In this document: positions 4,250-64,000 of the stretch, piece by piece
How the letters are laid out: the number at the start of each line of letters is the position of its first letter
Numbering within the stretch: position 1 is the stretch's first letter
From: Sphaerisporangium sp. TRM90804
GTDB taxonomy: Bacteria; Actinomycetota; Actinomycetes; Streptosporangiales; Streptosporangiaceae
NCBI RefSeq assembly: GCF_029846175.1
Contig: NZ_JARWAC010000013.1
Location: forward strand, 1-64,000
Reading direction: 5' to 3'
Length of the DNA stretch: 64,000 nt
The notes under the pieces: model-generated
What the model was told of the DNA's origin: nothing
The model's input: the letters and a program-made list of their open reading frames with translations, nothing else
Database searches by the model: none
Made by a program: the position numbers and the translations under genes

Positions 4250-5431
4250 GTGTCATCGGCAGTCGAGTGGATCGTTCTGGTGGTCGCCGTCGTGGCGGCG
4301 GTCGTGGCCGTGGAGCTGCTCCGGCGGGTGCTGAGGTCCCGCCGGGTCAACGGCCGCTTCTCGCTGGCCGGGCCGGTGGTCGAGCGCTGCACGTGGCCGG
4401 GGTTCGCGACGGCGGCCGTGGTCGCCTTCGACACGGTCTACGCGCCGGGCATGTCGGCCGGGTCGTTCGACCCGGCGATCCGCCAGACCCTCACGCTGCT
4501 GTTCATCGCCTGCGTCGCGTGGCTCGTCATCCAGGCCGCCTACGCGGTGACCGACGTGGTGCTGGCCCGGCTGGGCACGGTCGAGGGCGACGGCAACCGC
4601 AAGGCGCGCCGCATGCGCACCCAGATCGCCCTGGTGCGGCGCGTGGCCGCGGCCGTGATCATCGTCGTCTCCCTGGGCGCGATGCTGTTCAGCTTCCCTT
4701 CGGTGCGCGCGCTCGGCGCCGGGCTGCTCGCCTCGGCCGGAATCCTCGGCGTGGTGGCGGGCATCGCCGCGCAGTCGACGCTGAGCAACCTGATCGCCGG
4801 CCTCCAGCTCGTCTTCAGCGACGCCCTGCGGCTCGACGACGTCGTCGTGGTCGACGGCGAGTGGGGAAGGATCGAGGAGCTCACGCTGACCTACGTCGTC
4901 CTGCGCGTGTGGGACGAGCGGCGGCTCATCCTGCCGGTCTCCCACTTCACCGGCAACCCGTTCGAGAACTGGACCCGGCACGGGAGCCGCGTGATCGGCC
5001 ACGTGATCTTCCGGGTCGACTGGTCGGTGCCGGTCGACGAGCTGCGGACCGAGCTCTACCGCGCGCTGCGCGAGCACCCGCTCTGGGACCAGAAGGACTG
5101 GGTGCTCCAGGTGACCGACGTGCAGCCCAACGGCCTGGTGGAGCTGCGCGCGCTGATGAGCGCGTCGGACGCCCCCAGCGTGTGGGACCTGAAGTGCGAC
5201 ATGCGCGAGCACCTGGTGACCTACATCCGCGAGAACCACCCGCAGGCGCTCCCGCGCTTCCGCGTCGAGGACGTCGCCGGGGTCCAGGGGCCGTCGCCCG
5301 CCTCCCGCGCCGCGGCCGGCCCGGCCGGGGCGGCGTCCGGCATGGGCCCGCAGCAGGGCTGGACGCAGCCGGGCGACGCCGGCGGCGCCTCCGGACTGCG
5401 GGGCGACGCCGCGGACGGCTCCGGACGGTGA
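4250..5431 (+). CDS. MscS-family mechanosensitive ion channel
   Basis: Predicted small-conductance mechanosensitive channel that releases osmolytes on hypo-osmotic shock; inner membrane, homo-oligomeric in this family. The 393-aa product starts at GTG 4250 behind an A/G-rich site. Hydrophobic segments lie near residues 7-27, 60-95, 128-148 and 155-185. The last continues into the conserved pore and beta domain (GILGVVAGIAAQSTLSN, then a stretch ending GEWGRIEEL). The cytosolic alpha/beta domain covers residues ~235-340 and the last ~55 residues are a Gly/Ala/Pro-rich tail. The family call is firm; the physiological stimulus is inferred. It is separated from nrdAB by a terminator and is probably monocistronic. 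Confidence 0.88.
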   Translation: MSSAVEWIVLVVAVVAAVVAVELLRRVLRSRRVNGRFSLAGPVVERCTWPGFATAAVVAFDTVYAPGMSAGSFDPAIRQTLTLLFIACVAWLVIQAAYAVTDVVLARLGTVEGDGNRKARRMRTQIALVRRVAAAVIIVVSLGAMLFSFPSVRALGAGLLASAGILGVVAGIAAQSTLSNLIAGLQLVFSDALRLDDVVVVDGEWGRIEELTLTYVVLRVWDERRLILPVSHFTGNPFENWTRHGSRVIGHVIFRVDWSVPVDELRTELYRALREHPLWDQKDWVLQVTDVQPNGLVELRALMSASDAPSVWDLKCDMREHLVTYIRENHPQALPRFRVEDVAGVQGPSPASRAAAGPAGAASGMGPQQGWTQPGDAGGASGLRGDAADGSGR

Positions 5432-41378: not shown

Positions 41379-42317
41379 TCAGGACCTGGGGAGTTGGTAG
41401 TTCTCGTCGAGGGCGGCGCCTCGGTGGGGCTTGTACTGGTCGTAGCCTCGCGAGTCGCACTGGAGGCCGCCGTTGATGCAGTGGCGGACCAGGGCGTCGA
41501 GCGTGGGGGGGTCCCAGGCGTTGAAGAAGTCGTAGTGCCAGGTGTAGCCGCGGCCGCTGGCCAGGCGGACGGTGGACATGTCGCCGCTGACGGGGAAGGC
41601 GATCTTGAACTCGATCATCGGGACGACGGAGGGGTGGGTGGAGGGGCAGCGGCCGTTGACCGGGTAGGCCATGTGGCTCTTGTGGTCGGCGCTGTCGAGG
41701 TCTCTGCCGTTCCAGCAGCTCGGGGCCTGGAAGCGGACGTTGAGCTGGGTTCCGGCCGGGCAGTTGGCCGGGAAGTCCCAGTTGAAGGCGCTGTTGCCGC
41801 ACTCCCAGCCCTCGACGCGGCCGGGGTGGTTCTGGAACTCCGACTGGCTCGCGGTCGGGCTGCCGACGACGAAGCGCAGGCCCTGGGGGAAGGAGCGGAC
41901 GGTCGTGTAGTCCTGGACGCCGGACTTGTAGTACACGACCTGGCGGAAGTTGGGCAGGATCATCTGGCTGCCCTTGTAGACCGAGGGGAACCAGTAGGCC
42001 GACTTGTCACCGGGGACGGTGCACGCCGTCCCGCCCGCGAGCAGCGAGGACGTGGTGCTGCTCGCGTTCGTGGTCGTGTTCCCGAGGAACGTGTGCATGT
42101 GCGAGGCGCCGGGCAGGCCGGGGTAGATGATCGGGTCGTCCGGCCGGTTCACCGTGGGGTTGCAGTTGGCCTGGAACTCGTGGTGGCTCACGTAGTCGTC
42201 GGCCGCCACGGCCGGGGACTGCTGAGCATGGGCTCCTGTGGTGGCACTAGCCACCAGGGCGAGGGCCGCGAGGCCGGTCGCCAGGCGGCCGGCCGTTCGC
42301 GTGAGCGTGCGTGACAC
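41379..42317 (-). CDS. Secreted DUF1996 protein under LacI-type control
   Basis: A 312-aa secreted protein: signal peptide (~1-33, ending ATTGAHA), then one DUF1996 domain with SHHEFQANC, ASHMHTFLGN, DKSAYWFPS and FQAPSCWNGRD motifs and several conserved Cys. GTG start behind GGGAGAGACC. Its promoter (TTGACA, 17 bp, TAACCC) carries GGAGAGCGCTCTCC just downstream of the -10, the same operator found before the neighbouring glycosidases and lacI. It is divergent from the GH55-like gene. This co-regulation links DUF1996 to polysaccharide breakdown; the activity itself is unknown. Confidence 0.85.
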   Translation of the reverse strand: MSRTLTRTAGRLATGLAALALVASATTGAHAQQSPAVAADDYVSHHEFQANCNPTVNRPDDPIIYPGLPGASHMHTFLGNTTTNASSTTSSLLAGGTACTVPGDKSAYWFPSVYKGSQMILPNFRQVVYYKSGVQDYTTVRSFPQGLRFVVGSPTASQSEFQNHPGRVEGWECGNSAFNWDFPANCPAGTQLNVRFQAPSCWNGRDLDSADHKSHMAYPVNGRCPSTHPSVVPMIEFKIAFPVSGDMSTVRLASGRGYTWHYDFFNAWDPPTLDALVRHCINGGLQCDSRGYDQYKPHRGAALDENYQLPRS

Positions 42318-42428
42318 GGTCTCTCCCGTCTGCGGGGGGCTGGTCGGAGAGTCGGGGGGGCGGGTCCTCGGCAGGGCCGGCGGGACCAGGGGCGTGGGAC
42401 GGCGGGGCCGCCGACGCGACGGAGGGCT

Positions 42429-42476
42429 GGAGAGCGCTCTCCCTAGAGGGTTACGCCGATGTTTCGCGTCTGTCAA
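42429..42476 (-). promoter_or_regulatory. DUF1996 promoter with LacI-type operator
   Basis: Read on the minus strand: -35 TTGACA (42476-42471), 17-bp spacer, -10 TAACCC (42453-42448), then the perfect palindrome GGAGAGCGCTCTCC (42442-42429) over the expected start site. Repressor bound there would block initiation. The full 42318-42829 gap is 512 bp and otherwise shows only the divergent promoter described next. Confidence 0.8.
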
Positions 42477-42723
42477 CCGGTTCTTCACATCTGATGGGTC
42501 GTGCGGGTGCGAACAGGGAGTCCCTCGCGAGAGATTCCATGTCAGAGCCCTTCGCTGAGGGAACGGGATGATGACAACCACTCTGACGTGCGCGGATGGC
42601 CTTCTGTCACGTGCCAAGGGCGAGTCGGGGGGCGGCGCGGGGCCGGTGACCGGGGGGCCGGGAGGGGGTGGACGTGTTTCGGCCGTGTGAGCAGCGCGTT
42701 TCCAACTCGGCGGCGGGGGAGTG

Positions 42724-42771
42724 TTGACAAGGACCGGCACAGCGGACACTCTCTGCTGGAGAGCGCTCTCC
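42724..42771 (+). promoter_or_regulatory. GH55-like gene promoter with LacI-type operator
   Basis: -35 TTGACA (42724-42729), 17-bp spacer, -10 CACTCT (42747-42752), then GGAGAGCGCTCTCC (42758-42771). The same three elements at nearly the same spacing precede the 48961 gene, and the leader sequences downstream are also similar. Confidence 0.8.
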
Positions 42772-42829
42772 CTTTCCTGTCGCCACCGTGTGCGGCGGCG
42801 GGCACCCCCCATGTCTTAAAGGAGAGGCC

Positions 42830-45031
42830 GTGCACCCAACTCGCAGTCCAGGCCGGTACAGGATCGGCCTGCTCATCGCCTCGCTGGTCGCCCTGGTCGT
42901 CCCCGGTCTGACCGTCGTGAGCCCCGCCGCGGCCGGCACGGCGCCGTCGAGCAGCGGGTCCGCGTCCTCGGCGGCGGCGGCGTGCGGCACGGCCAACGCC
43001 GCGCAGGGCAGGCCCGCGACGGCGTCCTCGTCCGAGGGCGCGGGCACGCCCGCCTCTGCGGCGTTCGACGGCGACACCGGCACGCGGTGGTCCAGCGCGT
43101 TCAGCGACCCGCAGTGGATCCAGGTCGACCTCGGCAGCTCACAGGAGATCTGCCAGGTCGTGCTGAGGTGGGAGAGCGCGTACGGCAGGGCCTTCCAGAT
43201 CCAGGTGTCGGCCAACGGCTCCACCTGGACCCCGGTGTACACCACGACCACCGGCGCGGGCGGCGTGCAGACCCTCGCGGTGTCCGGCACCGGCCGGTAC
43301 GTACGCATGTACGGGACGGCGCGCGCGACCGGTTACGGCTACTCCCTGTGGGAGTTCGCCGTGAACACCGGCTCGGGCACGCCGAGCCCGGCGTGCGCGA
43401 CCGACTTCGGGCCCAACGTCTCGGTCTTCGACCCCTCCATGCCGGCCGCGACCATCCAGGCCCGGCTCAACTCGGTGTTCGCCGAGATGGAGAGCAACCA
43501 GTTCGGCCAGCAGCGCTACGCCCTGCTGTTCAAGCCGGGCACGTACAACGTCGGCGCGAGGGTCGGCTACTACACGCACGTCGCCGGGCTCGGCATGTCG
43601 CCCGACGACGTCACCATCAACGGCCCGGTGATGGTCGACGCCGGATGGTTCAACGGCAACGCCACCCAGAACTTCTGGCGCGCCGCCGAGAACATGGCGC
43701 TGCGGCCGAACGAGGGCTACAACCGCTGGGCGGTCTCCCAGGCCGCGCCGTTCCGCCGCATGCACGTGCGCTCCGACATGCAGCTCGACGACGGCGGCTG
43801 GTCCAGCGGCGGCTTCATCTCCGACAGCAAGATCGACGGCCAGGTGCGGTCCGGCTCCCAGCAGCAGTGGCTGACCAGGAACAGCGAGCTGGGAAGCTGG
43901 TCGGGCTCGGTGTGGAACATGGTCTTCACCGGCGTCGCCGGCGCGCCCCCGCCGAACTTCCCCAACCCCTCCCACACGGTGGTGGACCAGACGCCCGTCA
44001 GCCGGGAGAAGCCGTTCCTGTACGTCAACAGCGCCGGGGCGTACAACGTGTTCGTGCCGTCGCTGCGGCAGAACACACGCGGCGCGACGTGGACGTCGGG
44101 CCAGACGCCCGGCTCGTCCCTGCCGCTCGGCGACTTCTGCATCGCCAGGCCCGGTGACACGGCCGCCAAGCTGAACGCGGCGCTGGCCTCGGGCAAGCAC
44201 CTGCTGTTCACCCCCGGCGTCTACCACGTCGACCAGCCGCTGAGGGTCACCCGCCCCGACACGGTGGTGCTCGGCATCGGGCTGGCGACGATCATCCCGG
44301 ACAACGGGACCATGGCGTTGTCGGTCGCCGACGTCGACGGCGTCAAGATCGCCGGACTGCTCATCGACGCGGGCCCGGTCAACACCCCGGTGCTGGTCGA
44401 GGTCGGCCCGGCCGGCTCGTCGGCGAGCCACGCGGCCAACCCGACCACGCTGCACGACCTGTTCGTCAGGATCGGCGGCGCGCACGTCGGCAAGGCGACC
44501 ACCAGCGTGGTGGTCAACAGCCGCAACGTCATCGGCGACAACCTGTGGCTGTGGCGCGGCGACCACGGCACGGGCGTCGGCTGGACGGTCAACACGGCCG
44601 ACACCGGCCTGGTCGTCAACGGCTCCGACGTGGTCATGTACGGCCTGTTCGCCGAGCACTACCAGAAGTACCAGGTGATCTGGAACGGCGAGCGGGGCCG
44701 CACGTACTTCTTCCAGAACGAGATGCCCTACGACCCGCCCAACCAGGCGAGCTTCATGAACGGCTCGACGCTCGGCTACGCGGCCTACAAGGTCGCCGAC
44801 TCGGTCACCACCCACGAGGCGTGGGGGCTCGGCAGCTACTGCCTGTTCCTGGACGACACGAGCATCGTCGCCGAGCGGGCCTTCGAGGTGCCGAACAGGT
44901 CGGGTGTCAGGCTCCACAACATGGTGATCGTCTCGCTGGGCGGCGTGGGCACCATCCGCCACGTCGTCAACAACACCGGGGGTCCGGTGAACGCCGCCTC
45001 CCAGACCTACTACCTCACCGGCTACCCGTAA
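42830..45031 (+). CDS. Secreted CBM32 + right-handed beta-helix protein, likely GH55-like beta-1,3-glucanase
   Basis: A 733-aa secreted protein. Signal peptide ~1-36; CBM32 (F5/8 type C) domain ~55-180 with DPQWIQVDLGSS and GYGYSLWEF; then a long beta-helix region ~190-733 beginning FGPNVSVFDPSMP, with ALLFKPGTYNVG and a second helix start at FTPGVYHVDQP. This matches the layout of actinobacterial GH55 exo-beta-1,3-glucanases of the SacteLam55A kind, as far as I recall that family. GH assignment is likely but not certain; a pectin-lyase-fold lyase is the alternative. GTG 42830 follows AAAGGAGAGG. Promoter, signal peptide and CBM32 are close relatives of those at 48961. Confidence 0.7.
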   Translation: MHPTRSPGRYRIGLLIASLVALVVPGLTVVSPAAAGTAPSSSGSASSAAAACGTANAAQGRPATASSSEGAGTPASAAFDGDTGTRWSSAFSDPQWIQVDLGSSQEICQVVLRWESAYGRAFQIQVSANGSTWTPVYTTTTGAGGVQTLAVSGTGRYVRMYGTARATGYGYSLWEFAVNTGSGTPSPACATDFGPNVSVFDPSMPAATIQARLNSVFAEMESNQFGQQRYALLFKPGTYNVGARVGYYTHVAGLGMSPDDVTINGPVMVDAGWFNGNATQNFWRAAENMALRPNEGYNRWAVSQAAPFRRMHVRSDMQLDDGGWSSGGFISDSKIDGQVRSGSQQQWLTRNSELGSWSGSVWNMVFTGVAGAPPPNFPNPSHTVVDQTPVSREKPFLYVNSAGAYNVFVPSLRQNTRGATWTSGQTPGSSLPLGDFCIARPGDTAAKLNAALASGKHLLFTPGVYHVDQPLRVTRPDTVVLGIGLATIIPDNGTMALSVADVDGVKIAGLLIDAGPVNTPVLVEVGPAGSSASHAANPTTLHDLFVRIGGAHVGKATTSVVVNSRNVIGDNLWLWRGDHGTGVGWTVNTADTGLVVNGSDVVMYGLFAEHYQKYQVIWNGERGRTYFFQNEMPYDPPNQASFMNGSTLGYAAYKVADSVTTHEAWGLGSYCLFLDDTSIVAERAFEVPNRSGVRLHNMVIVSLGGVGTIRHVVNNTGGPVNAASQTYYLTGYP

Positions 45032-45080
45032 CCACGCGGGCCGGCCCCGCCGAGCGCGGGGGCCGGGTCGTCGAGGGCGC

Positions 45081-45125
45081 CGAGGCCCGGGCCCCCCCGG
45101 TGAGGGCGGCGGGGCCCGGGCCTCG
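45081..45125. terminator. Bidirectional terminator between GH55-like gene and lacI
   Basis: A 15-bp perfect stem (45081-45095 with 45111-45125, containing GAGGCCCGGGCCCC) and a 15-nt loop lie in the 111-bp gap between convergent genes. Confidence 0.7.
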
Positions 45126-45142
45126 CGGCGGTGGACGTGCCC

Positions 45143-46195
45143 TCAGGAGGAGTCCCGCACCACCAGGGACGGCTCGAAGATGACCGAGGTGACCGGCCTG
45201 CCGGGGTCGTCGACCCGCTCCATCAGCATGCGGGCCATCTCGCCGGCCATGTCCTCCACCGGGTGGCGGATCGTGGTCAGCGGCGGCCGGCTGGCGGTCG
45301 CCGCGCTGCTGTCGTCGAAGCCGACCACGGCGACGTCCCCGGGCACCCGGCGGCCGTGGTGGCGCAGCACCTGCAGGGCGCCCTGGGCCATCAGGTCGTT
45401 GGCCACGAAGACGCCGTCGACGCCGGGATGGTCGGCCAGCAGCCGCTCCATGGCGATCTCGCCGCTCTGGTGGGTGAAACCGCCCTCGACGCACGGCACG
45501 TACGGGAAGCCGTGCGCGGCCATGGCGTCGCGGAAGCCCGACAGCCGGTCCTGGCTGGCGGGCACGTCGAGCGGGCCGGCGATGGTCGCGACGCGCCGGC
45601 GGCCCCGGGCCACCAGGTGGTCGGCGGCGAGCTTGGCGCCCGTGCGGTGCGCCACGTCGACGTAGCTGATCGGCAGCGGCGTGGCCGGCCGGGCGAACAG
45701 GACGGCGGGCAGCGAGGCCTCGACCAGCATCGCGGGCAGCGGGTCCTCCGAGTGGGTGGAGACCAGCACGGCGCCGTCGGCGTTCCCCTGGCGCAGGAAC
45801 GCGATCACCTGGGCGCGGGCCTCGCGGGTCTCGGCGAACATCAGGATCGGGTGCACGCCTCGCGGGCGCAGGAAGCCGACCACGCCGCCGGCCACGCGGC
45901 CGAAGAAGGGGTCGGCGAAGACCTGGTTGTGAAAGGGGTTCTCGCCGCCGTCGGTGCCCGCGCCCGAGACGATCAGGGCGATCGCCCCGGTGCGGCGCGT
46001 GACCAGCGACCTGGCCGCCCGGTTGGGGACGTACCCGGTGTCGGCGACGGCCCGCCTGACCGTCTCCTGGATCGCGGGGTCGACGTTGCGAACGCCGTTG
46101 ATGACGCGCGAGACCGTGGCGCGGGAGACGCCCGCCGCGCGAGCCACGTCCTCCAGTGTCGGGGATGCCGAAACAGGGGGGCGACCTTCGCTCAT
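45143..46195 (-). CDS. LacI-family transcriptional regulator of the glucan-type regulon
   Basis: A 350-aa LacI repressor. HTH at ~12-35 (LEDVARAAGVSRATVSRVING), hinge helix near NRAARSLVTRR, then a periplasmic-binding-like sensor domain for a sugar. Start ATG 46195: TATAAA lies 6 nt upstream, consistent with a leaderless mRNA, and an operator palindrome at 46216-46229 covers the -35, so it should repress itself. It sits downstream of the GH3 gene (46 bp) and can also be read through from the GH3 promoter. It is the obvious candidate to bind the five identical palindromes around it. The inducer is probably a short beta-glucan oligosaccharide (inference). Confidence 0.9.
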   Translation of the reverse strand: MSEGRPPVSASPTLEDVARAAGVSRATVSRVINGVRNVDPAIQETVRRAVADTGYVPNRAARSLVTRRTGAIALIVSGAGTDGGENPFHNQVFADPFFGRVAGGVVGFLRPRGVHPILMFAETREARAQVIAFLRQGNADGAVLVSTHSEDPLPAMLVEASLPAVLFARPATPLPISYVDVAHRTGAKLAADHLVARGRRRVATIAGPLDVPASQDRLSGFRDAMAAHGFPYVPCVEGGFTHQSGEIAMERLLADHPGVDGVFVANDLMAQGALQVLRHHGRRVPGDVAVVGFDDSSAATASRPPLTTIRHPVEDMAGEMARMLMERVDDPGRPVTSVIFEPSLVVRDSS

Positions 46196-46201
46196 GTGGC
46201 T

Positions 46202-46230
46202 TTTATAGCACGGCGGGAGAGCGCTCTCCA
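46202..46230 (-). promoter_or_regulatory. lacI promoter with overlapping operator
   Basis: Minus strand: -10 TATAAA (46207-46202) six nt before the ATG, -35 TGGAGA (46230-46225) with a 17-bp spacer, and GGAGAGCGCTCTCC (46229-46216) overlapping the -35 and spacer. This fits autorepression independent of the GH3 promoter. Confidence 0.75.
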
Positions 46231-46241
46231 GATCCCTGGGG

Positions 46242-48704
46242 TCACACCGGCCCATCCGTCACGACGGTGGTGCCCGTGACCAGCGGCACGTCGGCCGCCG
46301 AGCGCCCCGCCAGGACGGTGACCGGCCCCGGCTCGTACGCCCAGGCGTGCCGCTCGGCGTCCCAGTGGCGCAGCGCGCGGGCGGGCACCTCGACCGCCAC
46401 CTCGACGGCCTCGCCCGGCCCCGCGACGGCGCGCGCGTGCCCGGCCAGCCGCCGTGCGGTGCCCGGGCCGCCGGCCGGCTCCAGGTACACCTGGACGACC
46501 TCGCGGCCCGCCCGCCCGCCGGTGTTGCGCAGCCGCACCCGGACGGTGAACGGCTCGCCGGCGACGACCCGGGCGGGCGCGGCGACGCCCTCGTACGCCC
46601 ACGTCGTGTACCCCAGGCCGTGGCCGAACCAGTACGCGGGCGGCTCCTGCTCGCCCAGCCACGCCCGATAGCCGATGAGCGGGCCCTCGGCGTACTCCAG
46701 CACCCCGCCGGACGGCGTGGTGCCCGCGAGCGCCCGGCCGGCCCACGTGGTGGGCAGCCGCCCGCCGGGCTCGGCGGCGCCGAGCAGCACGTCGGCGAGG
46801 CCGCCGCCGTACTCCTGGCCGGGGAACCAGCTCAGCAGCACCGCGGGCACCTCCTCGCGCCACGGCAGGTCCACGGGCCCTCCCGCGTTGACCACCACGA
46901 CGGTGCGCGGGTTGGCCGCGGCGACCGCCCGCACCAGGGCGTCCTGCTCGCCGGGCAGCGACAGGCCGGTGCGGTCGTAGCCCTCGCTCTCGCTCTCGTC
47001 GGTCGAGCCGACCACCACGACGGCCACGTCGGCCCCACCGGCGAGCTCGACGGCGGCGGCCAGCTCCTCGGCGTCGCCCCGGCGCGGCGGGTCGGCCGCG
47101 AGCACCGAGGCCAGCCCGGTGCCGGGGTCAAGCCGCCGCGTGGCGACCAGCTCGACGTCCCGGCCGGCGGTCAGCTCCAGGTCGGCGTACCGGTAGGGCG
47201 GGTGCAGGTGGACGGTCGCCGGGTCGTCGGTGTCCCGCTCCACCTCCTCCTCGAGCAGGGTGCGGCCGTCCGCGGCCAGCGACACCCGGCCCCACCCGGC
47301 CACCGCCAGCCGCCAGGTGCCGCCGACCGGCGGGCACAGCCATGCGCGGATCTCCACCGCGGACGCGGCCTCTGCCGTCGCCGGCTCCAGGATGCGCCCG
47401 GTCAGCCGGTGCTCGGCGTGCAGCTCCGCGCCGTCGGCCGACAGCAGGCGCACCAGGACGCCCGGCTCGCCGCCGCGCGGGTCGCGGGCGTTGCCCAGGC
47501 CGAGCGGGGTGGGGTGGCCGGTGGTGTGCACTCCGGCGGCGTGAGCGACCTCGGCCCTGCCGGCCAAAGCCTCGGTGACGCCCTCCAGAGGGGTGGTGAC
47601 CGAGACCGGGTACACCCCCGCGCTGCCCCCGCCCTGCACGCGCGGGGTCGCCGCGTTGGGGCCGATCACCGCGACCCTGCGCAGCCGGCCGGCGTCCAGG
47701 GGCAGCAGAGACCCCTCGTTGCGCAGCAGGACGGTGCTCGCCGCGACGGCCTCGCGCAGCAGCACCCGCCCGCGCTCGGCGTACGCCGGCTCGACGGGGA
47801 CCGCGGGCGCCGCGGCGGCGAGGAAGGAGCCGGGCGCGGGGTCGTCCGGGCAGAGGGCGCCGACGCGGGAGGCCAGGCGCAGCAGGCGGCGGACCTTGTC
47901 GTCGACCGCCTCCTCGGGCACCTCGCCCGCGCGCACCGCCTCCACCAGCGCCTCGCCCCAGGGCCCGTCGGGGCCCGGCATGACCAGGTCCTGTGCGGCG
48001 CGCGCGGAGGCGGCCGTGGACCGCACGGCCCCCCAGTCGGAGATCACCAGCCCGTCGAAGCCCCATTCGCCCTTCAGCGGCTCGGCGAGCAGCGGGTTCT
48101 CGGTCATGGTGGCGCCGTTGACCCCGTTGTAGGCGGCCATCACCACCCAGACGCCGGCCTCGACGGCGGCCTCGAACGGCGTCAGGTACACCTCCCGCAG
48201 CGTGCGCTCGTCCACACGCGCGTCGAGCGTCAGCCGTTCGGTCTCGGAGTCGTTGGCCACGTAGTGCTTGGCGGTGGCGGCGACCCCGTGCGCCTGCACG
48301 CCCCTGATGTAGGCGGCGCCGATGCGGGCGGTGAGCAGCGGGTCCTCGGAGTAGCACTCGAAGTGCCGCCCGCCCAGGGGCGAGCGGTGCAGGTTGATCG
48401 TGGGCGCCAGCAGCACGTCGACGCCCTTGCGCCGGGCCTCGGCCGCGAGCAGCGCGCCGAGCCGCCCGACCAGGTCCTCGTCCCAGCTCGCGGCGAGCGC
48501 GGTGGGGGAGGGCAGGGTCAGGGAGGTGCTGCGCTCGTCCCATCCCTGGCCGCGGACGCCGACCGGGCCGTCGGAGGTGACGATCGGGCGCAGGCCGATG
48601 TCGGGCTCGGCGTGGGTGCGCCACGCCGTCCCCCCGGTCAGCAGCCGCACCTTCTGGGCGAGGTCCAGCTTGCGCACCAGGTCGTCGTACGCGTCGTCGG
48701 TCAC
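46242..48704 (-). CDS. GH3 beta-glucosidase with PA14 domain, intracellular
   Basis: An 820-aa GH3 enzyme without signal peptide, so it should cleave imported oligosaccharides in the cytosol. The N-terminal barrel (~1-300) has KHYVANDSE and the nucleophile Asp223 in LVISDWGAVRST. A PA14-like insertion spans ~385-530. The second sheet domain carries the acid/base Glu region ESEGYDRTGLSLPGEQ (~575-595), and a fibronectin-III-like domain ends it. GTG start behind GGAAGGA. Promoter and operator lie immediately upstream. PA14-bearing GH3 enzymes act on beta-glucosides of various linkages. Together with the secreted enzymes it gives a cascade from polymer to glucose. Confidence 0.92.
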   Translation of the reverse strand: MTDDAYDDLVRKLDLAQKVRLLTGGTAWRTHAEPDIGLRPIVTSDGPVGVRGQGWDERSTSLTLPSPTALAASWDEDLVGRLGALLAAEARRKGVDVLLAPTINLHRSPLGGRHFECYSEDPLLTARIGAAYIRGVQAHGVAATAKHYVANDSETERLTLDARVDERTLREVYLTPFEAAVEAGVWVVMAAYNGVNGATMTENPLLAEPLKGEWGFDGLVISDWGAVRSTAASARAAQDLVMPGPDGPWGEALVEAVRAGEVPEEAVDDKVRRLLRLASRVGALCPDDPAPGSFLAAAAPAVPVEPAYAERGRVLLREAVAASTVLLRNEGSLLPLDAGRLRRVAVIGPNAATPRVQGGGSAGVYPVSVTTPLEGVTEALAGRAEVAHAAGVHTTGHPTPLGLGNARDPRGGEPGVLVRLLSADGAELHAEHRLTGRILEPATAEAASAVEIRAWLCPPVGGTWRLAVAGWGRVSLAADGRTLLEEEVERDTDDPATVHLHPPYRYADLELTAGRDVELVATRRLDPGTGLASVLAADPPRRGDAEELAAAVELAGGADVAVVVVGSTDESESEGYDRTGLSLPGEQDALVRAVAAANPRTVVVVNAGGPVDLPWREEVPAVLLSWFPGQEYGGGLADVLLGAAEPGGRLPTTWAGRALAGTTPSGGVLEYAEGPLIGYRAWLGEQEPPAYWFGHGLGYTTWAYEGVAAPARVVAGEPFTVRVRLRNTGGRAGREVVQVYLEPAGGPGTARRLAGHARAVAGPGEAVEVAVEVPARALRHWDAERHAWAYEPGPVTVLAGRSAADVPLVTGTTVVTDGPV

Positions 48705-48722
48705 TCGGAGTCCTTCCGGGTT

Positions 48723-48774
48723 GGAGAGCGCTCTCCCTCCGGCCTAGCGTCACCGCCCCGGGCGGGGATGTCAA
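48723..48774 (-). promoter_or_regulatory. GH3 promoter with LacI-type operator
   Basis: Minus strand: TTGACA (48774-48769), 17-bp spacer, -10 GACGCT (48751-48746), then GGAGAGCGCTCTCC (48736-48723), which ends 18 bp before the GTG start codon. Same order as at the DUF1996 and GH55-like promoters. Confidence 0.8.
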
Positions 48775-48857
48775 TGGGGCGCCGGCGGCCGCCGGGAGGG
48801 CGTCGGACGCGTTTCCGTCGGGTGAGCGCCCGGTTTCGGGCAGGTTGCGCGGTGGTC

Positions 48858-48907
48858 TTGACAGCGATCGAGCCGCGGGTGCACTCTCCATTCGGAGAGC
48901 GCTCTCC
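48858..48907 (+). promoter_or_regulatory. Promoter-operator of the modular GH16/clan-A enzyme
   Basis: TTGACA (48858-48863), 18-bp spacer, CACTCT (48882-48887), then GGAGAGCGCTCTCC (48894-48907). Divergent from the GH3 promoter in the same 256-bp gap, which holds nothing else. Confidence 0.8.
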
Positions 48908-48960
48908 CTCCGTCTCCGGTCACCGTCCACGGCCGGCACCCCCCGCACCGAGGAGAGAAC

Positions 48961-51900
48961 GTGCATTCATCCCGCAGCCCGGGCAGGCTCCGCGTCGGCC
49001 TGCTGACCAGCCTTCTTGTCCTCATCGTCGCGGCGGGCCTGGCGGTGGTCACCCCCGCCACGGCCGCCGACACCCTGCTGTCGCAGGGCAGGCCCGCGAC
49101 CGCCTCCTCCACCGAGGGCGCCGCCTACGGCGCGTCGGCCGCCGTCGACGGCAACCTGACCGGCACCCGCTGGGCGAGCGCGTGGAGCGACCCGCAGTGG
49201 ATCCAGGTGGACCTCGGCGCGACGGCGACCATCAGCCAGGTGGTGCTGACGTGGGAGGGCGCCGCCTACGGCAGGGCCTTCCAGATCCAGACCTCCGCCG
49301 ACGCGGCCACCTGGACCCCGGTGTACGCCACCACGACCGGCACCGGCGGCGTGCAGACCCTGTCGACGCCCGGCTCGGGCCGCTACGTGCGGCTGTACGG
49401 CACCGCGCGCGGCAGCGGCTACGGCTACTCGCTGTGGGAGTTCCAGGTCTACGGCAGCTTCGGCACGACGCCGACCCCCACCCCCACTCCCACTCCCACG
49501 CCCGGGAACTGGACCGAGCTGTGGAGGGACGACTTCGACGGCCCGGCCGGCACCTCGCCCTCGGCGGCCGGCTGGCTGCTGCGCACCGGCACCCGGTACC
49601 CCGGCGGCGCCGCCAACTGGGGCACCGGGGAGGTCGAGACCATGAGCGCCTCCACCGCCAACGTGTCGCTCGACGGCGCCGGCCGGCTCAACATCCGCGC
49701 CATCAGGGACGGCTCCGGCAACTGGACCTCCGGCCGCGTCGAGACCCAGCGCACCGACTTCGCCCCCCGGGCGGGCGAGCAGCTCAGGTTCACCGCCAGG
49801 CTCAAGCAGCCGGACGTGGCCAACGCCATGGGCTACTGGCCCGGCTTCCGCGCGACCGGCGCCGCCTACCGGGGCGACTACAACAACTGGCCCGGCATCG
49901 GCGAGACCGACATCATGACCGACGTCAACGGCCGCAGCCAGCTCTCGCAGACGCTGCACTGCGGCACCGCGCCCGAGGGCGTGTGCAACGAGTACAACGG
50001 CCGCACCAGCGGCCTGGCGTCCTGCACCGGGTGCCAGACCGGCTACCACGAGTACACCCAGATCATCGACCGCACGAAGACCGACGAGGAGATCCGCTTC
50101 TACCTCGACGGCCGCCAGACCTGGGTGGTCAGGGAGAGCCAGGTCGGCGTCGCCGCCTGGCAGGCCGCCGTCCACCACGGCTTCTACCTGCGCTTCGACC
50201 TGGCCATCGGCGGCTCGCTGCCCAACGCCGTCGCCGGGTTCACCACCCCCACGCCCGCCACCACCTCCGGCGGCGTGCTCAGCGTCGAGTCGGTCCAGGT
50301 GGCCAGGAGCACCGGCACGGTCCCGTCCGCGATGACCGACCCGGCCACCCCCGCCGGCCCGAGCACCGTCCGCGTCACCGGCACCCAGGGCAACTGGCGG
50401 CTCGACGTCAACGGCGCGCCGTACGAGATCAAGGGCATCACCTACGGCCCGCCGCAGGCCGCCGCCGACGGCTACATGCGCGACCTGAAGGCGATGGGCG
50501 TGAACACCATCCGCACCTGGGGCGTGGACGACACCCACACCCCGACGCTGCTCAACCGGGCCGCCCAGCAGGGCATCAAGGTGATCGTCGGCCACTGGCT
50601 GAACCAGGGCGCCGACTACGTCAACGACACCGCCTACAAGAACAGCGTGAAGAACGAGATCGTCGCCCGGGTCAACGCGCTCAAGGGCCACCAGGGCGTG
50701 CTGATGTGGGACGTGGGCAACGAGGTCCTGCTCACCATGCAGGACTATGGCCTGCCGGCGGCGGAGGTCGAGGCGCGGCGCGTCGCCTACGCCAAGTTCG
50801 TCAACGAGGTGGCGGTGGCGATCCACGCCGCCGACCCCGGCCACCCGGTCACCTCCACCGACGCGTGGGTCGGCGCGTGGCCGTACTACAAGGCGCACAC
50901 CCCCGCGCTCGACCTGCTGGCCGTGAACGCCTACGGCGCGATCGGCGGCGTCAGGCAGGCGTGGATCGACGGCGGGTACACCAAGCCGTACATCATCACC
51001 GAGGGTGGCCCCGCCGGCGAGTGGGAGGTGCCGAACGACGTGAACGGCGTGCCCACCGAGCCGACCGACCTGCAGAAGCGGGACGGGTACACGGCGAGCT
51101 GGAACGCGATCAAGGCGCACCCGGGCGTCGCGCTCGGCGCCACCGAGTTTCACTACGGGCTGGAGAACGACTTCGGCGGCGTGTGGCTGAACACCCTCAC
51201 CGGCGGCTGGCGGCGGCTCGGCTACCACGCGCTGAAGCAGGCCTACACCGGCCAGGCGTCGGCCAACACCCCGCCGCGCGTCACCTCGATGACGGTCGGC
51301 TCGCAGACCGCCGTCCCCGCGGGCGGCCAGTTCACCGTCGAGACGGCGGTGACCGAGCCCGAGGGCGACCTGGTGCGCTACAACCTGATGTTCAGCGACA
51401 AGCACGTCACCGGGAACCGGGGCTTCAGCCACGTCCGCTTCACCGAGACCGCCCCGGGGCGGTTCACGGTGACCGCGCCGCAGCAGATGGGCGTGTGGAA
51501 GGTGTACGTCTACGCCTTCGACGGGCACGGCAACGTCGGCATCGAGCAGAAGTCGTTCCGCGTGGTGGCGCCGACCCCGCCGGGGACCAACGTGTCGGCG
51601 GGCAGGCCGACCACGGCCTCCTCCTACCAGGCGGTCGGCGACGGCGGCGCGCCGTTCACGCCCGCCAAGGCGACCGACGGCGACTACTCCACGCGCTGGG
51701 CCAGCGAGTGGAGCGACCCGCAGTGGATCCAGGTCGACCTCGGCGCGACCACCGCGGTCAGGCACGTGCAGCTGGCCTGGGAGGGCGCGTACGGCAGGGC
51801 GTACCAGATCCAGACGTCCACCGACGGCGCGAGCTGGACGCCGGTGTACACCACCACGAGCGGGGACGGCGGGTTCGACGGCGTCGACGTGAACGTCTCC

Positions 51901-51981
51901 GCCCGGTACGTCCGCGTCGACCTCACCCAGCGCGCCACCGGCTACGGCTACTCCCTGTGGGAGTTCGGCGTCTACAGATGA
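48961..51981 (+). CDS. Secreted multimodular enzyme: CBM32 - GH16-like - clan-A glycosidase - CBM32
   Basis: A 1006-aa secreted protein. Signal peptide ~1-36; CBM32 ~38-163; Thr/Pro linker ~166-180; GH16-like jelly roll ~182-450; TIM-barrel glycosidase ~460-765 (GVNTIRTWG, acid/base Glu588 in WDVGNEV, nucleophile Glu681 in IITEGG); an Ig-like domain ~770-870; and a second CBM32 ~880-1006. In the GH16 part the catalytic line reads GETDIMTD (from residue 314): Glu315 and Asp317 are kept but the acid/base Glu is Thr320, so this domain may only bind or may use another residue. The barrel resembles GH2/GH5/GH17-like enzymes; the exact family is open. Likely substrate is a beta-glucan of fungal or algal walls. 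Confidence 0.85.
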   Translation: MHSSRSPGRLRVGLLTSLLVLIVAAGLAVVTPATAADTLLSQGRPATASSTEGAAYGASAAVDGNLTGTRWASAWSDPQWIQVDLGATATISQVVLTWEGAAYGRAFQIQTSADAATWTPVYATTTGTGGVQTLSTPGSGRYVRLYGTARGSGYGYSLWEFQVYGSFGTTPTPTPTPTPTPGNWTELWRDDFDGPAGTSPSAAGWLLRTGTRYPGGAANWGTGEVETMSASTANVSLDGAGRLNIRAIRDGSGNWTSGRVETQRTDFAPRAGEQLRFTARLKQPDVANAMGYWPGFRATGAAYRGDYNNWPGIGETDIMTDVNGRSQLSQTLHCGTAPEGVCNEYNGRTSGLASCTGCQTGYHEYTQIIDRTKTDEEIRFYLDGRQTWVVRESQVGVAAWQAAVHHGFYLRFDLAIGGSLPNAVAGFTTPTPATTSGGVLSVESVQVARSTGTVPSAMTDPATPAGPSTVRVTGTQGNWRLDVNGAPYEIKGITYGPPQAAADGYMRDLKAMGVNTIRTWGVDDTHTPTLLNRAAQQGIKVIVGHWLNQGADYVNDTAYKNSVKNEIVARVNALKGHQGVLMWDVGNEVLLTMQDYGLPAAEVEARRVAYAKFVNEVAVAIHAADPGHPVTSTDAWVGAWPYYKAHTPALDLLAVNAYGAIGGVRQAWIDGGYTKPYIITEGGPAGEWEVPNDVNGVPTEPTDLQKRDGYTASWNAIKAHPGVALGATEFHYGLENDFGGVWLNTLTGGWRRLGYHALKQAYTGQASANTPPRVTSMTVGSQTAVPAGGQFTVETAVTEPEGDLVRYNLMFSDKHVTGNRGFSHVRFTETAPGRFTVTAPQQMGVWKVYVYAFDGHGNVGIEQKSFRVVAPTPPGTNVSAGRPTTASSYQAVGDGGAPFTPAKATDGDYSTRWASEWSDPQWIQVDLGATTAVRHVQLAWEGAYGRAYQIQTSTDGASWTPVYTTTSGDGGFDGVDVNVSARYVRVDLTQRATGYGYSLWEFGVYR

Positions 51982-52122: not shown

Positions 52123-55100
52123 ATGGTGGTCCGTCTCCCGCGCCGTAGAGGCGCACGCGGAGGGTCCCGCTTCGCGCGCCCGTTCACGGTCGCGCTGCTC
52201 TGCTCCGCATCGCTCGCCACCTTCCTGGTGGCCCCGCCGCGCCCCGCCGCGGCCGACCCGTTCCCGCCGCCGGTGATCCGCGACGAGTCGATCGCCATGT
52301 CCGAGGCGCAGCGGCTCGGCGTTCCGGTGGAGATCCTCTCCGGGCGCAGTGAGACGGCGCGGTTGTTCGCCGAGCCGGACGGCAACCAGCGCCTGGTCGT
52401 CACCGCCCGCCCGGAGCGTGTGCTCAAGGGCTCCGAATGGGTGGACGTCCAGCCGAACCTGGTGCCGGTGGACGGCGGCGCGGTCGAGCCCGAAGCGTCG
52501 GCGGTCGGGGTCACCTTCTCCGGGGGCGGAGAAGGGCCGCTGGTGCGCGTCGTCGAGGACGGCGTGACGCTCGCGTTCACCTGGCCCACCCCGCTGCCGG
52601 CGCCGTCCGTCGAGGGCGCCGTCGCCACCTACGCGGACGTGATCCCCGGCGTGGACCTCAAGATGTCGGCCGACGTCGACGGCTACTCGCAGGTGCTGGT
52701 GGTCAAGACGCCGGAGGCCGCGGCCCGGCCGGAGCTGGCCGAGCTGCGGGTCGGCTACCAGGTGACCGGCGGCGGCCTGTCGATGGACGCGGCCGGCAAC
52801 ATGACCCTGGTCTCCGGCGACGGCCAGGTCAAGCTGCACGGCTCCACCCCGCAGATGTGGGACTCCACCGCGACGGAGGACGGCGGCGACCGGCTGGCCG
52901 GCCCGCTCACCGGCGACGCGGTCGGCAGCCTGGCCGCGCGGCTGGAGGACGGCACGCTGGTGCTCACGCCCGACCAGGAGTTCCTGCGGGCTCCCGGGCT
53001 GACCTTCCCGCTCTACGTCGACCCGCCGATGCACGGCGCGGGGCGGCTGGCCTTCGCGTACGTCTCCAAGCACTTCGCCTCGACCAAGTACTACGGCACC
53101 AAGGACGTGGCGAAGGTCGGCTACTACAACGACCCCCGCGTGCCGCGCGGCCCGACCCGGGACACCTACCGGTCGTTCTTCCGCATGAACACCGCGGGGG
53201 TGAACGGCAAGCACATCATCAAGGCGACCTTCCGTACCTTCGAGACGCACTCGTGGTCGTGCTCGGCCCGCGCCGTGCAGCTGTGGCAGACCGGCGCGAT
53301 CGGCACCGGCACCACCTGGAACTCCCAGCCGTCGTGGCGACGCCAGGTCGCCTCGGTGAACGCCGCGAAGGGGTACTACTCCAGGTGCGGCGACGGCGGA
53401 GTGGACTTCAACGCCACCTCCGCGGTGGTGGAGGCCGCGTCCAAGGGCTGGCCCAACCTGACGCTGGGCCTGCGGGCCGCCAGCGAGTCCGACACCTTCG
53501 CCTGGAAGAAGTTCCGCAACAACCCCAGCCTGGAGATCACCTACAACACCACGCCCAACATCCCCGACCAGCGCTCGTCGGAGATCGGGGCGAGCCTCGG
53601 CGTGCCGTGCGCGACCGGCGACGCCCGCCCCTACGTGACCACGGCCACCCTGACCCTGCGCGCCCGCGTAAGCGACGCCGACGCGAACAAGGGGCAGACG
53701 GTGCGCGCCCACTTCGAGTGGTACAACGGGTCCGCCAAGGTCGGCGAGCGGTACACCGCCTACGTGGCCTCCGGCACCCCGGTCACCGCGCCCATCCCGG
53801 CCGGCGCGTTCCCCGACGGCGCGCGCGTCACCTGGCGGGTCCGAGCCCAGGACGGCGTCGCCACCAGCGGCACCAGCGACTGGGCGCCGTCGTGCGAGAT
53901 GACGATCGACCGCACCAGGCCGGCCAACTCCCCGGTGGTGGCCTCCGCCGACTATCCCGAGACGCCCTCGGGGGGCGATCCGGTGCCCTCCGGCGGCATC
54001 GGGCGGATGGGCACGTTCACGCTCACCCCCGGGCCGCTGGACAAGGACATCGGCAGCTACCTGTACGCGCTGAACAGCGACTCGCCGGGCGCGGCCGCCT
54101 CGGTCAGCGCGCCGGCGGGCACGGCGACCATCAAGGCCACCCCGCTGCGCAGCCTGCTCAACGTCCTGTACGTCTGGAGCCGTGACAAGGCCGGCAACAT
54201 CGGCCCCTACAAGCGCTACGAGTTCAGCGTCCGGGCCGGAACGCCCGCCACGGGGCACTGGAGGATGGACGAGGCGACCGGCACCCGGGTCGGCGACGCC
54301 TCGGGCAACGGCAACGAGGCCACGCTGGCCGAAGGCGCGGTGTGGGGCAAGGGCCGGGTGGGCGGCGGTGTGCGCCTCGACGGGACCGGGGCCAGGCTCG
54401 GGTTCGTCAGGGAGACGCCGATCATCCGCACGGACGCGAACTTCACCGTCTCGACCTGGGTCCGGCTGGACGACAAATCCGTGACGCGCACGGTGATGAG
54501 CCAGGACGGCGTCGACCGCAGCGGCTTCGCCCTTCAGTACAACCAGCCGCTCGACCGCTGGGCGATGACCATGCCCTCGGCGGACAGCCCCAGCGGAGGC
54601 GTCACCTTCGCCACGGCGAAGTCCGACGCGCCGCCACGGCTCGACAGCTGGGTGCACCTGGGCGCCAGCTTCGACGCCGCGACCCGGCTGATCACCCTCT
54701 ACGTCGACGGCCGGCCGCAGGCGGCGACCGCCGTCCACCCCAGCCCGTGGCACGCGACGGGCAAGTTCGCCATCGGCAGGGGCCCGTGCTGCTCGGAGCC
54801 GTGGTCGGGCGAGGTCGACGACGCCAAGGTCTGGGACCGCGTGGTCTACCACGGCGACATCGCCAACGGCGCCGCCCGCCCGCCCGCGCTGACCGGCCAC
54901 TGGCGGTTCGACGGCGCAGGCTCCGTGGCCGGTGACTCCTCCGGCGGCAGGTGGGACATGCGGGCTTCGGGGGAGGCCTTCTCCTGGACCGAGGGGTGGA
55001 TCGGCGGCGCGGTGCGCTTCAACGGGCCCGGCACCCGCTTCGTCACCATTCCGCCGAGGCTCATACCGCCGAACTACCCGCCGCCGGTGCCGTCGCCGGG

Positions 55101-55563
55101 CGACCACCCCCAACTGCCCACCGACGCGTCCTACACGGTCGCCGCGTGGGTAAGGCTCGCCGACAAGCTCGACCAGCGGACCGCGGTCAGCATGGGAGGC
55201 GTCAACCAGGCCTCCTTCCTCCTGCAGTACTCCAAGGCCCACGACCGGTGGCGGTTCACGGTGCCCGTCGCCGACACGACCACCGCCGCCCACGCGGGCC
55301 CCGTCTCCGACGATCCGGCCGAGACCGGCGTGTGGACGCACCTGGTCGGCGTGCACGACCGGGGGAGGGGCGAACTCAAGCTCTACGTGGACGGCACTCA
55401 CCAGGGCACCGTCGCGTCGACCACGGCCTGGAGGGGCCACAACAACGTGATCATCGGCCAGGGTCACAACGACTCCGGCCAGTGGCTGGGGGACGTCGAC
55501 GACGTCCGCGTCTACAAGGGCGTGCTGAACGACGACGAGATCTACGACCTCGCCGCGCAGTAG
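52123..55563 (+). CDS. Large secreted protein with two LamG domains
   Basis: A 1146-aa exported protein. The twin-Arg-like N-terminus (PRRRGARGG...) precedes a signal ending PAAADPF near residue 45. A ~500-residue beta-rich region includes a DNRLRE-like part (SFFRMNTAG, then WNSQPSW), then an Ig-like section (~500-700), and two LamG/concanavalin-like domains (~705-905 and ~925-1146), each starting GHWRxD and ending in DVDD or VDDAKVW. Such proteins occur singly or as the N-terminal part of YD/Rhs toxins; no toxin part follows here. GAGGTAAGG precedes the ATG. No LacI-type palindrome is upstream, so it is not clearly in the glycosidase regulon. Confidence 0.78.
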   Translation: MVVRLPRRRGARGGSRFARPFTVALLCSASLATFLVAPPRPAAADPFPPPVIRDESIAMSEAQRLGVPVEILSGRSETARLFAEPDGNQRLVVTARPERVLKGSEWVDVQPNLVPVDGGAVEPEASAVGVTFSGGGEGPLVRVVEDGVTLAFTWPTPLPAPSVEGAVATYADVIPGVDLKMSADVDGYSQVLVVKTPEAAARPELAELRVGYQVTGGGLSMDAAGNMTLVSGDGQVKLHGSTPQMWDSTATEDGGDRLAGPLTGDAVGSLAARLEDGTLVLTPDQEFLRAPGLTFPLYVDPPMHGAGRLAFAYVSKHFASTKYYGTKDVAKVGYYNDPRVPRGPTRDTYRSFFRMNTAGVNGKHIIKATFRTFETHSWSCSARAVQLWQTGAIGTGTTWNSQPSWRRQVASVNAAKGYYSRCGDGGVDFNATSAVVEAASKGWPNLTLGLRAASESDTFAWKKFRNNPSLEITYNTTPNIPDQRSSEIGASLGVPCATGDARPYVTTATLTLRARVSDADANKGQTVRAHFEWYNGSAKVGERYTAYVASGTPVTAPIPAGAFPDGARVTWRVRAQDGVATSGTSDWAPSCEMTIDRTRPANSPVVASADYPETPSGGDPVPSGGIGRMGTFTLTPGPLDKDIGSYLYALNSDSPGAAASVSAPAGTATIKATPLRSLLNVLYVWSRDKAGNIGPYKRYEFSVRAGTPATGHWRMDEATGTRVGDASGNGNEATLAEGAVWGKGRVGGGVRLDGTGARLGFVRETPIIRTDANFTVSTWVRLDDKSVTRTVMSQDGVDRSGFALQYNQPLDRWAMTMPSADSPSGGVTFATAKSDAPPRLDSWVHLGASFDAATRLITLYVDGRPQAATAVHPSPWHATGKFAIGRGPCCSEPWSGEVDDAKVWDRVVYHGDIANGAARPPALTGHWRFDGAGSVAGDSSGGRWDMRASGEAFSWTEGWIGGAVRFNGPGTRFVTIPPRLIPPNYPPPVPSPGDHPQLPTDASYTVAAWVRLADKLDQRTAVSMGGVNQASFLLQYSKAHDRWRFTVPVADTTTAAHAGPVSDDPAETGVWTHLVGVHDRGRGELKLYVDGTHQGTVASTTAWRGHNNVIIGQGHNDSGQWLGDVDDVRVYKGVLNDDEIYDLAAQ

Positions 55564-62352: not shown

Positions 62353-62726
62353 TGACCGGGCTCGGGGCGAGCGAGCACGGTGACGGAGTGGGCGGGGAGC
62401 GCTCTCGGGACTGAGAATGCGCTCTCCCGGCTCACCGTGTCAAGGGTCGGCTTAACCGACAGGAAACTTTCCGAACATCTAGGTGCAATCGGACAGATGG
62501 GCTGAGAGCGCTCTCATCCGCCCATCCGTATATCGATCCTATCCGCTCTGACCTGCGGAAACCTGCGACCGTCTGAGAAACGCTTCCCTGGGGCGCCGCC
62601 TCCCGGCGTGTTCAGGTCACGGCGATCGTTACCATCCGACCCGTTGACACACACAGCGCGACCGGAAGACCCTTCTCGGGGAGCGCTCCCTTCATGATCA
62701 AAAAAATTCCCCCCAAGGGAGGGTCT
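62353..62726 (+). promoter_or_regulatory. Control region of the sugar-ABC operon with several LacI-type sites
   Basis: No gene here. Palindromes of the LacI type: GGGAGCGCTCTC near 62395-62406, a half-site GCGCTCTCC at 62419-62427, perfect TGAGAGCGCTCTCA at 62503-62516, and perfect GGGAGCGCTCCC at 62679-62690. A -35 TTGACA at 62644-62649 with a weak GACCCT -10 (62668-62673) stands just before the last site, the same order as at the 42-49 kb promoters. Two arm types (GAGAG and GGGAG) raise the possibility of two regulators. AAGGGAGGG precedes the start codon. Confidence 0.7.
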
Positions 62727-64000
62727 ATGGGCAAGCTTCGCCCCCGGATGGTCACCCCGCTGCTCGCCGCCGTACTGGCCGTGAGCGTCTCCGCCTGTGG
62801 CGGCGGCGGCGGCGGTACGGACGCGGGCGCCTCTCCGGGCGCCTCCCAGCCGGCCGAGAAGATCAAGCTGACCGTCGCGCTGTTCAGCGACTTCCACTTC
62901 GCGCCGCTGTACGAGGAGTTCAAGAAGACACACCCGAACGTCGAGATCGTCGAGCGGCGTTCGCAGTTCAACGACCACCACAAGAACCTCACCACGAAGC
63001 TGGCCACCGGCGCGGGCGCCGCGGACGTCGAGGCGGTGGAGGCCGGCTACATCGCCACCTTCACCCCGCTCGTCGACAAGTTCCACAACCTGGGCGACTA
63101 CGGCATGGCCAAGCGCCAGGCGGACTACCTCGACTGGAAGTGGAAGCAGGGCCTGTCGCCCGACGGCTCCAAGGTGCTCGGCCTCGGCACCGACATCGGC
63201 GGCCTCGCCATGTGCTACCGCACCGACCTGTTCAAGAAGGCCGGCCTGCCGACCGACCGCGAAGAGGTCTCGGCGCTCTGGCCCACGTGGGAGGCCTACC
63301 TGGAGGCGGGCAAGAAGTTCACCGCCGCCAAGGTCTCGGGCGCCAAGTGGTTCGACGGCCCCGGCGAGAACTTCCGCGCGATGGTCGACCAGGCGCCCGT
63401 CGGCTTCTACGACACCAGCAACACCCTGGTCGCGGGCACCAACCCCGACGTCAAGAAGGCATGGGACCTGTCGGTCCAGAGCATCCAGGCCGACCAGTCG
63501 GCCAAGCTGGCCGCCTTCAGCCCGCCGTGGAACACCGGCCTCACCAAGGGCTCCTTCGCCACCATCATCTGCCCCTCGTGGAAGACCGGCAGCATCAAGG
63601 ACGCCGCCCCCACCACGTCCGGCAAGTGGGACGTCGCGGCCGTGCCCGGCGGCGGCGGCGGCAACCAGGGCGGCACCCACCTGATGGCTCCCAAGCAGGG
63701 CAAGCACCCCAAGGAGGCCGCGGAGCTCATCGACCTGCTGACCAACAAGGACTCGCAGCTCAAGCTGTTCTCCGAGGCCGGCGCGCTGCCGTCGATCCCC
63801 GCCCTCTACGACGACCCGACCATCACCGGGTTCACCAACCCCTTCTTCAGCGACGCGCCCACCGGCAAGATCTTCACCGACGCCGCGAAGGCTCTCAAGC
63901 CGCAGCACGTGGGGCCCAAGGCCGGTGACGTCCTGACCGCCTTCGGCAACGGCCTCCAGCGGGTGGAGCAGGGCAAGCAGTCGCCCGACGAGGCGTGGAC
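62727..64000 (+). CDS. Sugar ABC transporter substrate-binding lipoprotein (partial)
   Basis: An open frame from ATG 62727 that runs past the right edge (at least 424 codons). Signal MVTPLLAAVLAVSVSAC with lipobox VSAC near residue 24, a Gly run, then a family-1 solute-binding fold: KLTVALFSDFHFAPLYEEFKK, a hinge near DIGGLAMCYRTDLFKKAGL, and ADQSAKLAAFSPPW. This family delivers oligosaccharides to an MsmX/UgpC-type importer; permease genes should follow beyond the window. The LacI-type operators upstream tie it to sugar control and plausibly to the glycosidase cluster 14 kb away. Confidence 0.9.
   Translation, partial: MGKLRPRMVTPLLAAVLAVSVSACGGGGGGTDAGASPGASQPAEKIKLTVALFSDFHFAPLYEEFKKTHPNVEIVERRSQFNDHHKNLTTKLATGAGAADVEAVEAGYIATFTPLVDKFHNLGDYGMAKRQADYLDWKWKQGLSPDGSKVLGLGTDIGGLAMCYRTDLFKKAGLPTDREEVSALWPTWEAYLEAGKKFTAAKVSGAKWFDGPGENFRAMVDQAPVGFYDTSNTLVAGTNPDVKKAWDLSVQSIQADQSAKLAAFSPPWNTGLTKGSFATIICPSWKTGSIKDAAPTTSGKWDVAAVPGGGGGNQGGTHLMAPKQGKHPKEAAELIDLLTNKDSQLKLFSEAGALPSIPALYDDPTITGFTNPFFSDAPTGKIFTDAAKALKPQHVGPKAGDVLTAFGNGLQRVEQGKQSPDEAW

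Follow-up and report, generated by a model that had tools for sequence, protein, structure and literature searches.

A shared palindrome marks the promoters of a predicted LacI-controlled beta-1,3-glucan regulon in Sphaerisporangium

Introduction

Several LacI-family regulators of glucan breakdown have been described. CelR of Thermobifida fusca and CebR of Streptomyces act on cellulose genes, the Streptomyces protein through the operator TGGGAGCGCTCCCA (PMC4898821), and GlyR3 of Clostridium thermocellum, encoded in celC-glyR3-licA, is a laminaribiose-responsive LacI protein beside beta-1,3-glucanases (PMC5483248). In Streptosporangium roseum, an identical palindrome was reported before five adjacent genes (Sros_3721-3725), which include a LacI gene, two carbohydrate-binding module family 32 (CBM32) proteins and a glycoside hydrolase family 3 (GH3) gene, and was predicted to be a LacI-type regulatory site; a further copy precedes a putative cellobiose ATP-binding cassette (ABC) transporter operon (Sros_7173), and in the part of that report drawn on here the GH3 protein is called one of unknown function and no substrate is assigned (Anderson et al., 2012; PMC3377646). 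Here we analyse a stretch of 64,000 nucleotides (the window; NZ_JARWAC010000013.1, positions 1 to 64,000) from the 8.32-Mb genome of the soil actinomycete Sphaerisporangium sp. TRM90804, in which the same 14-bp palindrome, GGAGAGCGCTCTCC, stands at five promoters around a lacI gene. We put at roughly 90% the probability that these genes form a local beta-1,3-glucan regulon under one LacI-family repressor related to CelR and CebR. Beta-1,3-glucans are cell-wall and storage glucans of fungi or algae.

The palindrome, its LacI, CBM32 and GH3 neighbours and the prediction of a LacI-type site are common to this locus and that of S. roseum. The portion of the S. roseum report considered here does not name the GH55, GH158 and DUF1996 identities, the substrate or the conservation, and it places a copy before the Sros_7173 transporter operon, whereas no exact copy precedes a transporter in the present genome. 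A near-identical case having been predicted in print in 2012, we regard the locus as one more instance, by now well tested, of a known kind of system and not as a new kind; the new points are the substrate assignment, the firm membership of DUF1996, the loss of the cognate sugar-binding protein, a Glu-to-Thr or Glu-to-Ala change in the GH16 domain and a paralogous second locus. With CelR and CebR, members of a subgroup that responds to cellobiose or cello-oligosaccharides, the locus shares a related LacI protein, the GAGCGCTC core, the 14-bp palindrome size and an association with glucan-degradation genes, but their operators end in TGGGAG against GGAGAG in the window, their recognition residues are R-G against R-A, and their targets are cellulose genes against apparent beta-1,3-glucan genes here. 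GlyR3 resembles the predicted regulator in being a LacI-family autorepressor that adjoins beta-1,3-glucanase genes; it differs in phylum, operon layout and operator, each of the five genes here having an operator of its own. A literature search on laminarin, LacI and GH16 in actinobacteria returned nothing relevant.

Results and discussion

Palindrome copies and promoter layout

An earlier note on this DNA had listed five identical palindromes, before the DUF1996, GH55, lacI, GH3 and GH16-GH158 genes, and all five coordinates proved exact (Table 1). Counting across the whole genome, as the note had suggested, returned these five copies, every one at these promoters, and not the many random intragenic copies that it had named as grounds for refutation; the reversed control pattern has no occurrence in the 8.32 Mb. 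When up to three mismatches are allowed, the window holds 13 matches against 10.7 expected, which is not above chance, so the signal lies only in the exact copies and their placement.

The promoter architecture described in the note also holds when read from the sequence: at four promoters TTGACA is followed, after 17-18 bp, by a -10 box and then the palindrome, and at lacI the palindrome covers the -35 box. The distance from the start of TTGACA to the palindrome is 34 bp for both DUF1996 and GH55, 38 bp for GH3 and 36 bp for GH16-GH158; the -10 boxes of the DUF1996 and GH3 promoters match poorly. The lacI copy falls within the 46-bp GH3-lacI gap, and TATAAA stands 6 bp before the lacI ATG, so that the transcript is probably leaderless; as lacI follows GH3 on the same strand, the two may also share a transcript. 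Of 281 distinct palindromes, 185 have TTGAC[AC] 30-42 bp upstream, with a peak at 33-35, and placement at the transcription start is thus a general feature of these sites.

Table 1. Genes, palindromes and -35 elements of the predicted regulon, in window coordinates.
Feature	Position	Strand	Details and evidence
DUF1996 protein, predicted secreted, about 312 aa, GTG start	41379..42317	-	PF09362 E=5e-49
Secreted CBM32-GH55 exo-beta-1,3-glucanase	42830..45031	+	GH55 structure 4pew E=1.5e-219; CBM32-type F5/8 domain
LacI-family repressor, recognition helix SRATVSRV	45143..46195	-	Pfam LacI and Peripla_BP_3; closest PDB chain 5ysz E=1e-77
GH3 beta-glucosidase, probably cytoplasmic	46242..48704	-	Pfam GH3 N, C, Fn3-like; 7pjj E=1e-197
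Secreted CBM32-GH16-GH158-CBM32 protein	48961..51981	+	Matches to 3dgt, 9oro, 6pal, CBM32; motif check
Operator palindrome 1	42429..42442	.	DUF1996 promoter; exact match
Operator palindrome 2	42758..42771	.	GH55 promoter; exact match
Operator palindrome 3	46216..46229	.	GH3-lacI gap, over lacI -35 (predicted autoregulation); exact match
Operator palindrome 4	48723..48736	.	GH3 promoter; exact match
Operator palindrome 5	48894..48907	.	GH16-GH158 promoter; exact match
DUF1996 promoter TTGACA -35	42476-42471	-	17 bp, TAACCC, then palindrome; sequence
GH55 promoter TTGACA -35	42724-42729	+	17 bp, CACTCT, then palindrome; sequence
GH3 promoter TTGACA -35	48774-48769	-	17 bp, GACGCT, then palindrome; sequence
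GH16-GH158 promoter TTGACA -35	48858-48863	+	18 bp, CACTCT, then palindrome; sequence

Co-inheritance of the palindrome with lacI

The palindrome and this lacI are inherited together. Within Sphaerisporangium, the six genomes with this LacI or an ortholog (79-100% identical) are the same six that carry the exact palindrome (3-9 copies), and none of the five genomes without it does. The comparison within the family covered 299 genomes. A LacI ortholog is present in 63, every one of which carries 2-10 exact palindromes; among the 236 without one, 14 carry a single copy and two carry several, so that two or more copies occur in 63/63 genomes against 2/236 (Fisher p = 5e-50, which overstates independence because the genomes are related, though 17 genera are involved). 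No regulon gene lies within several kb of the nine copies in the two exceptional genomes, and these copies look incidental, several standing, by eye, in repeated or apparently coding sequence.

Thirty lacI ortholog loci were fetched by protein similarity alone, not by palindrome. The exact palindrome stands just before lacI in 27 of them, and in 29 with at most one mismatch, 33-40 bp before the start codon in most; six lacI paralogs checked in the same way have no such palindrome before them. A site so nearly fixed supports the autoregulation that the earlier note had predicted. About 35 further loci have palindromes before genes for LacI, GH3, GH16-GH158, DUF1996, GH55 and ABC sugar-binding proteins. 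The note had also predicted a single-repressor regulon. The regulon part of this claim is supported by the co-inheritance counts and by the confinement of the copies to promoters. A single repressor acting on these sites is likely, short of proof, because a paralogous LacI at C9 with the same recognition helix residues may share them.

Enzymes of the locus

The regulator itself has an N-terminal helix-turn-helix (PF00356, E=1.4e-15) and a periplasmic-binding-protein-like effector domain (PF13377, E=1.8e-39), as expected of the LacI family. Members of the LacI/GalR family bind short symmetric operators with a central CG at target promoters; what is seen here is a symmetric site at the promoters, inherited with this LacI. 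Compared with solved structures of GH55 (4pew), GH158 (9oro, 6pal) and a GH16 endo-1,3-beta-glucanase (3dgt), the catalytic domains encoded in the window are clear homologs; the GH55 alignment to 4pew, which belongs to a group of structures that we take to be SacteLam55A, extends over 531 residues (E=1e-219). No signal peptide was seen by eye at the GH3 N-terminus. Taken together, GH55, CBM32-GH16-GH158, a probably cytoplasmic GH3, DUF1996 and LacI make a gene set whose predicted activities fit a stepwise breakdown of beta-1,3-glucan. The gene directly after the regulon, at 52123-55563, has no palindrome; its probably secreted product of 1146 aa contains DNRLRE and two stretches of Laminin_G_3.

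The GH16-GH158 protein joins two domains of different standing. Active GH16 enzymes carry an ExDxxE motif with the acid/base Glu at its end, and in the window protein (GH16 domain at residues about 171-460) GETDIMTDV stands against GE-DIMENV in active relatives, Thr replacing that Glu. Thr or Ala occupies the position in 28/28 orthologs. In the GH158 domain the GNE and TE-GP motifs of that family, each with a catalytic Glu, appear as GNEV (residue 586) and TEGGPAG (residue 680), and both Glu are retained in all orthologs listed. Compared with 3dgt, the GH16 domain has lost the acid/base residue and stands, joined to GH158, between CBM32 modules; it is a conserved, probably inactive domain, whose role may be glucan binding or some unusual catalysis.

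DUF1996 as a member of the regulon

Eighty DUF1996 loci were fetched by protein from named genomes. Upstream sequence sufficed in 79, and 77 of these have such a site, mostly GGAGAGCGCTCTCC, no more than 1.2 kb before the gene. These loci include Planotetraspora, Nonomuraea, Herbidospora, Lentzea, Saccharothrix, Amycolatopsis, Kribbella, Actinoplanes and Kineosporia, representing several actinobacterial orders, and in several of them CBM32-like sequence stands just before DUF1996. DUF1996 is accordingly placed as a firm member of the predicted regulon across these orders, even where the gene lies far from lacI. Its AlphaFold model (pLDDT 84) found no convincing counterpart among solved structures (Foldseek best E=0.17, probability <0.1; VIA-align best Z=2.3), a result that does not prove a new fold, and a profile search of PDB sequences returned nothing credible. 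Fungal DUF1996 studies concern vacuolar stress proteins (PMC4738358). The bacterial protein may have a glucan-binding or unusual catalytic role. We tentatively suggest, at slightly worse than even odds, that DUF1996 is an unrecognised family acting on or binding beta-1,3-glucan, with an unseen fold and a place at the core of the regulon in several orders, and that the GH16-like domain without its acid/base residue serves GH158 as a glucan-binding module.

Repressor specificity and alternative readings

At the first recognition-helix residues, which align with LacI positions 17 and 18, 83/84 LacI orthologs have R-A; CelR-like paralogs have R-G, and a LacI at C6:67.4 kb has K-S. Could GGAGAGCGCTCTCC simply be the site of the general cellulose regulator CelR/CebR, with the local LacI incidental? 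The window LacI is related to that protein family, and the GAGCGCTC core is common to GGAGAGCGCTCTCC and the CebR box (PMC4898821), but the window sites depart from that operator by two changes per half-site, CelR-like R-G proteins occur in genomes without the palindrome and have no similar site before them, and inheritance of the site follows the local LacI; we consider this reading very improbable. The chance that the palindrome is a 5' leader RNA hairpin and not a DNA operator is slighter still: it overlaps the predicted start site, and a 5-bp stem with a GCGC loop could form from the sequence, but the lacI copy precedes the -10 box and would not be transcribed from that promoter, and the 14-bp symmetry, would-be loop included, is kept in nearly all orthologs. 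The position and symmetry of the palindrome led us to reject the mobile-repeat reading along with the hairpin.

Unlikely, though less so, is an overlapping network in which two or more LacI paralogs (that of the window, the C9 type and possibly that at C6:67.4 kb) share sites. The C9 LacI matches that of the window in its recognition residues and has sites of its own, GGAGAGCGCTCTCG and GGAGAGCGCTCTCA, and another Sphaerisporangium (L099) has an exact copy of the palindrome upstream of a C9-type lacI; against sharing, genomes of the genus that have other paralogs but not this LacI have no exact palindrome, and palindrome copy number tracks the window LacI ortholog. The single-repressor regulon that we favour is itself weakened on several sides: the C9 LacI is also R-A, with sites that depart from GGAGAGCGCTCTCC in nothing but the outermost base; the co-occurrence counts lack phylogenetic independence; and no dedicated importer is left at the locus. 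Cross-regulation between the C9 LacI and the window sites is possible on these sequences. The C9 paralog adjoins a CBM6 beta-glucanase-like gene (L107, G000:C9:186000-198000, sites at 6066 and 6255).

A missing importer and a second beta-glucan locus

In relatives the palindrome often stands before a gene for an ABC sugar-binding protein, followed by two permeases, and in several of them this importer sits between GH55 and lacI; it is missing from the corresponding gap in the window (45031-45143). No gene for the cognate sugar-binding protein occurs anywhere in this genome, but five other Sphaerisporangium genomes with this LacI have one. The window thus has secreted and intracellular glycosidases and a local regulator but, lacking an importer, falls short of an actinobacterial glycan utilisation locus.

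Ten kb downstream on the same contig lies a second beta-glucan locus (L110, C6:62394-75963, or 62.4-76 kb; in the window from 62394 to 64000 and onward). It encodes an ABC transporter, GH1, a LacI (49% identical), GH55, CBM32-GH16 and a DUF1996 protein (46%), and its palindromes, TGAGAGCGCTCTCA, GGGGAGCGCTCTCG, GGGGAGCGCTCCCT and AGAGAGCGCTCCCC, are related to GGAGAGCGCTCTCC but different. With the sugar-binding protein missing, import probably proceeds through another transporter, for example one at 62.7 kb, and the second-locus transporter may serve both loci.

A model for the regulon

Direct observation covers the sites, their confinement to this locus, their place at promoters and their co-inheritance with LacI; the arrangement that they form is real and widely conserved. 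How it might work is our proposal. Without inducer, LacI dimers would occupy GGAGAGCGCTCTCC, which covers the predicted transcription start of four genes (DUF1996, GH55, GH3 and GH16-GH158) and, at lacI, the -35 box, presumably blocking RNA polymerase. Basal GH55 and GH158 activity would release a short beta-1,3-gluco-oligosaccharide, such as laminaribiose, which, by analogy with GlyR3, would enter the cell, release LacI and turn on all five genes. Outside the cell, GH158 and GH55 would then cleave the polymer while the CBM32 modules, and probably the GH16-like domain, hold it. Imported oligosaccharides would be split inside the cell by GH3. Relatives could achieve import with the ABC transporter under the same operator, a step that in this genome would probably fall to a transporter such as that at 62.7 kb.

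For the study of a repressor the locus is clean and open to test: its one operator is almost perfectly conserved, and the substrate class is clear. It also links DUF1996, which is known chiefly from work on stress in fungi, with bacterial beta-1,3-glucan use. The presence in a single genome of LacI paralogs whose operators have shifted slightly makes, in addition, a convenient system for following the divergence of repressor specificity.

Genes on the opposite side of some palindromes (for a non-ribosomal peptide synthetase, Spo0M, a major facilitator superfamily protein and others) are probably unrelated neighbours, a simple gene caller having been used. Elsewhere in the TRM90804 genome, the near-palindromes AGAGAGCGCTCTCT and AGAGAGCGCTCTCC (L109, G000:C18, site at 4263; L108, G000:C19, sites at 5821 and 5942) have as neighbours a further GH55-like gene and a large GH3 that carries Exop_C, genes that are possibly outlying members of a related regulon.

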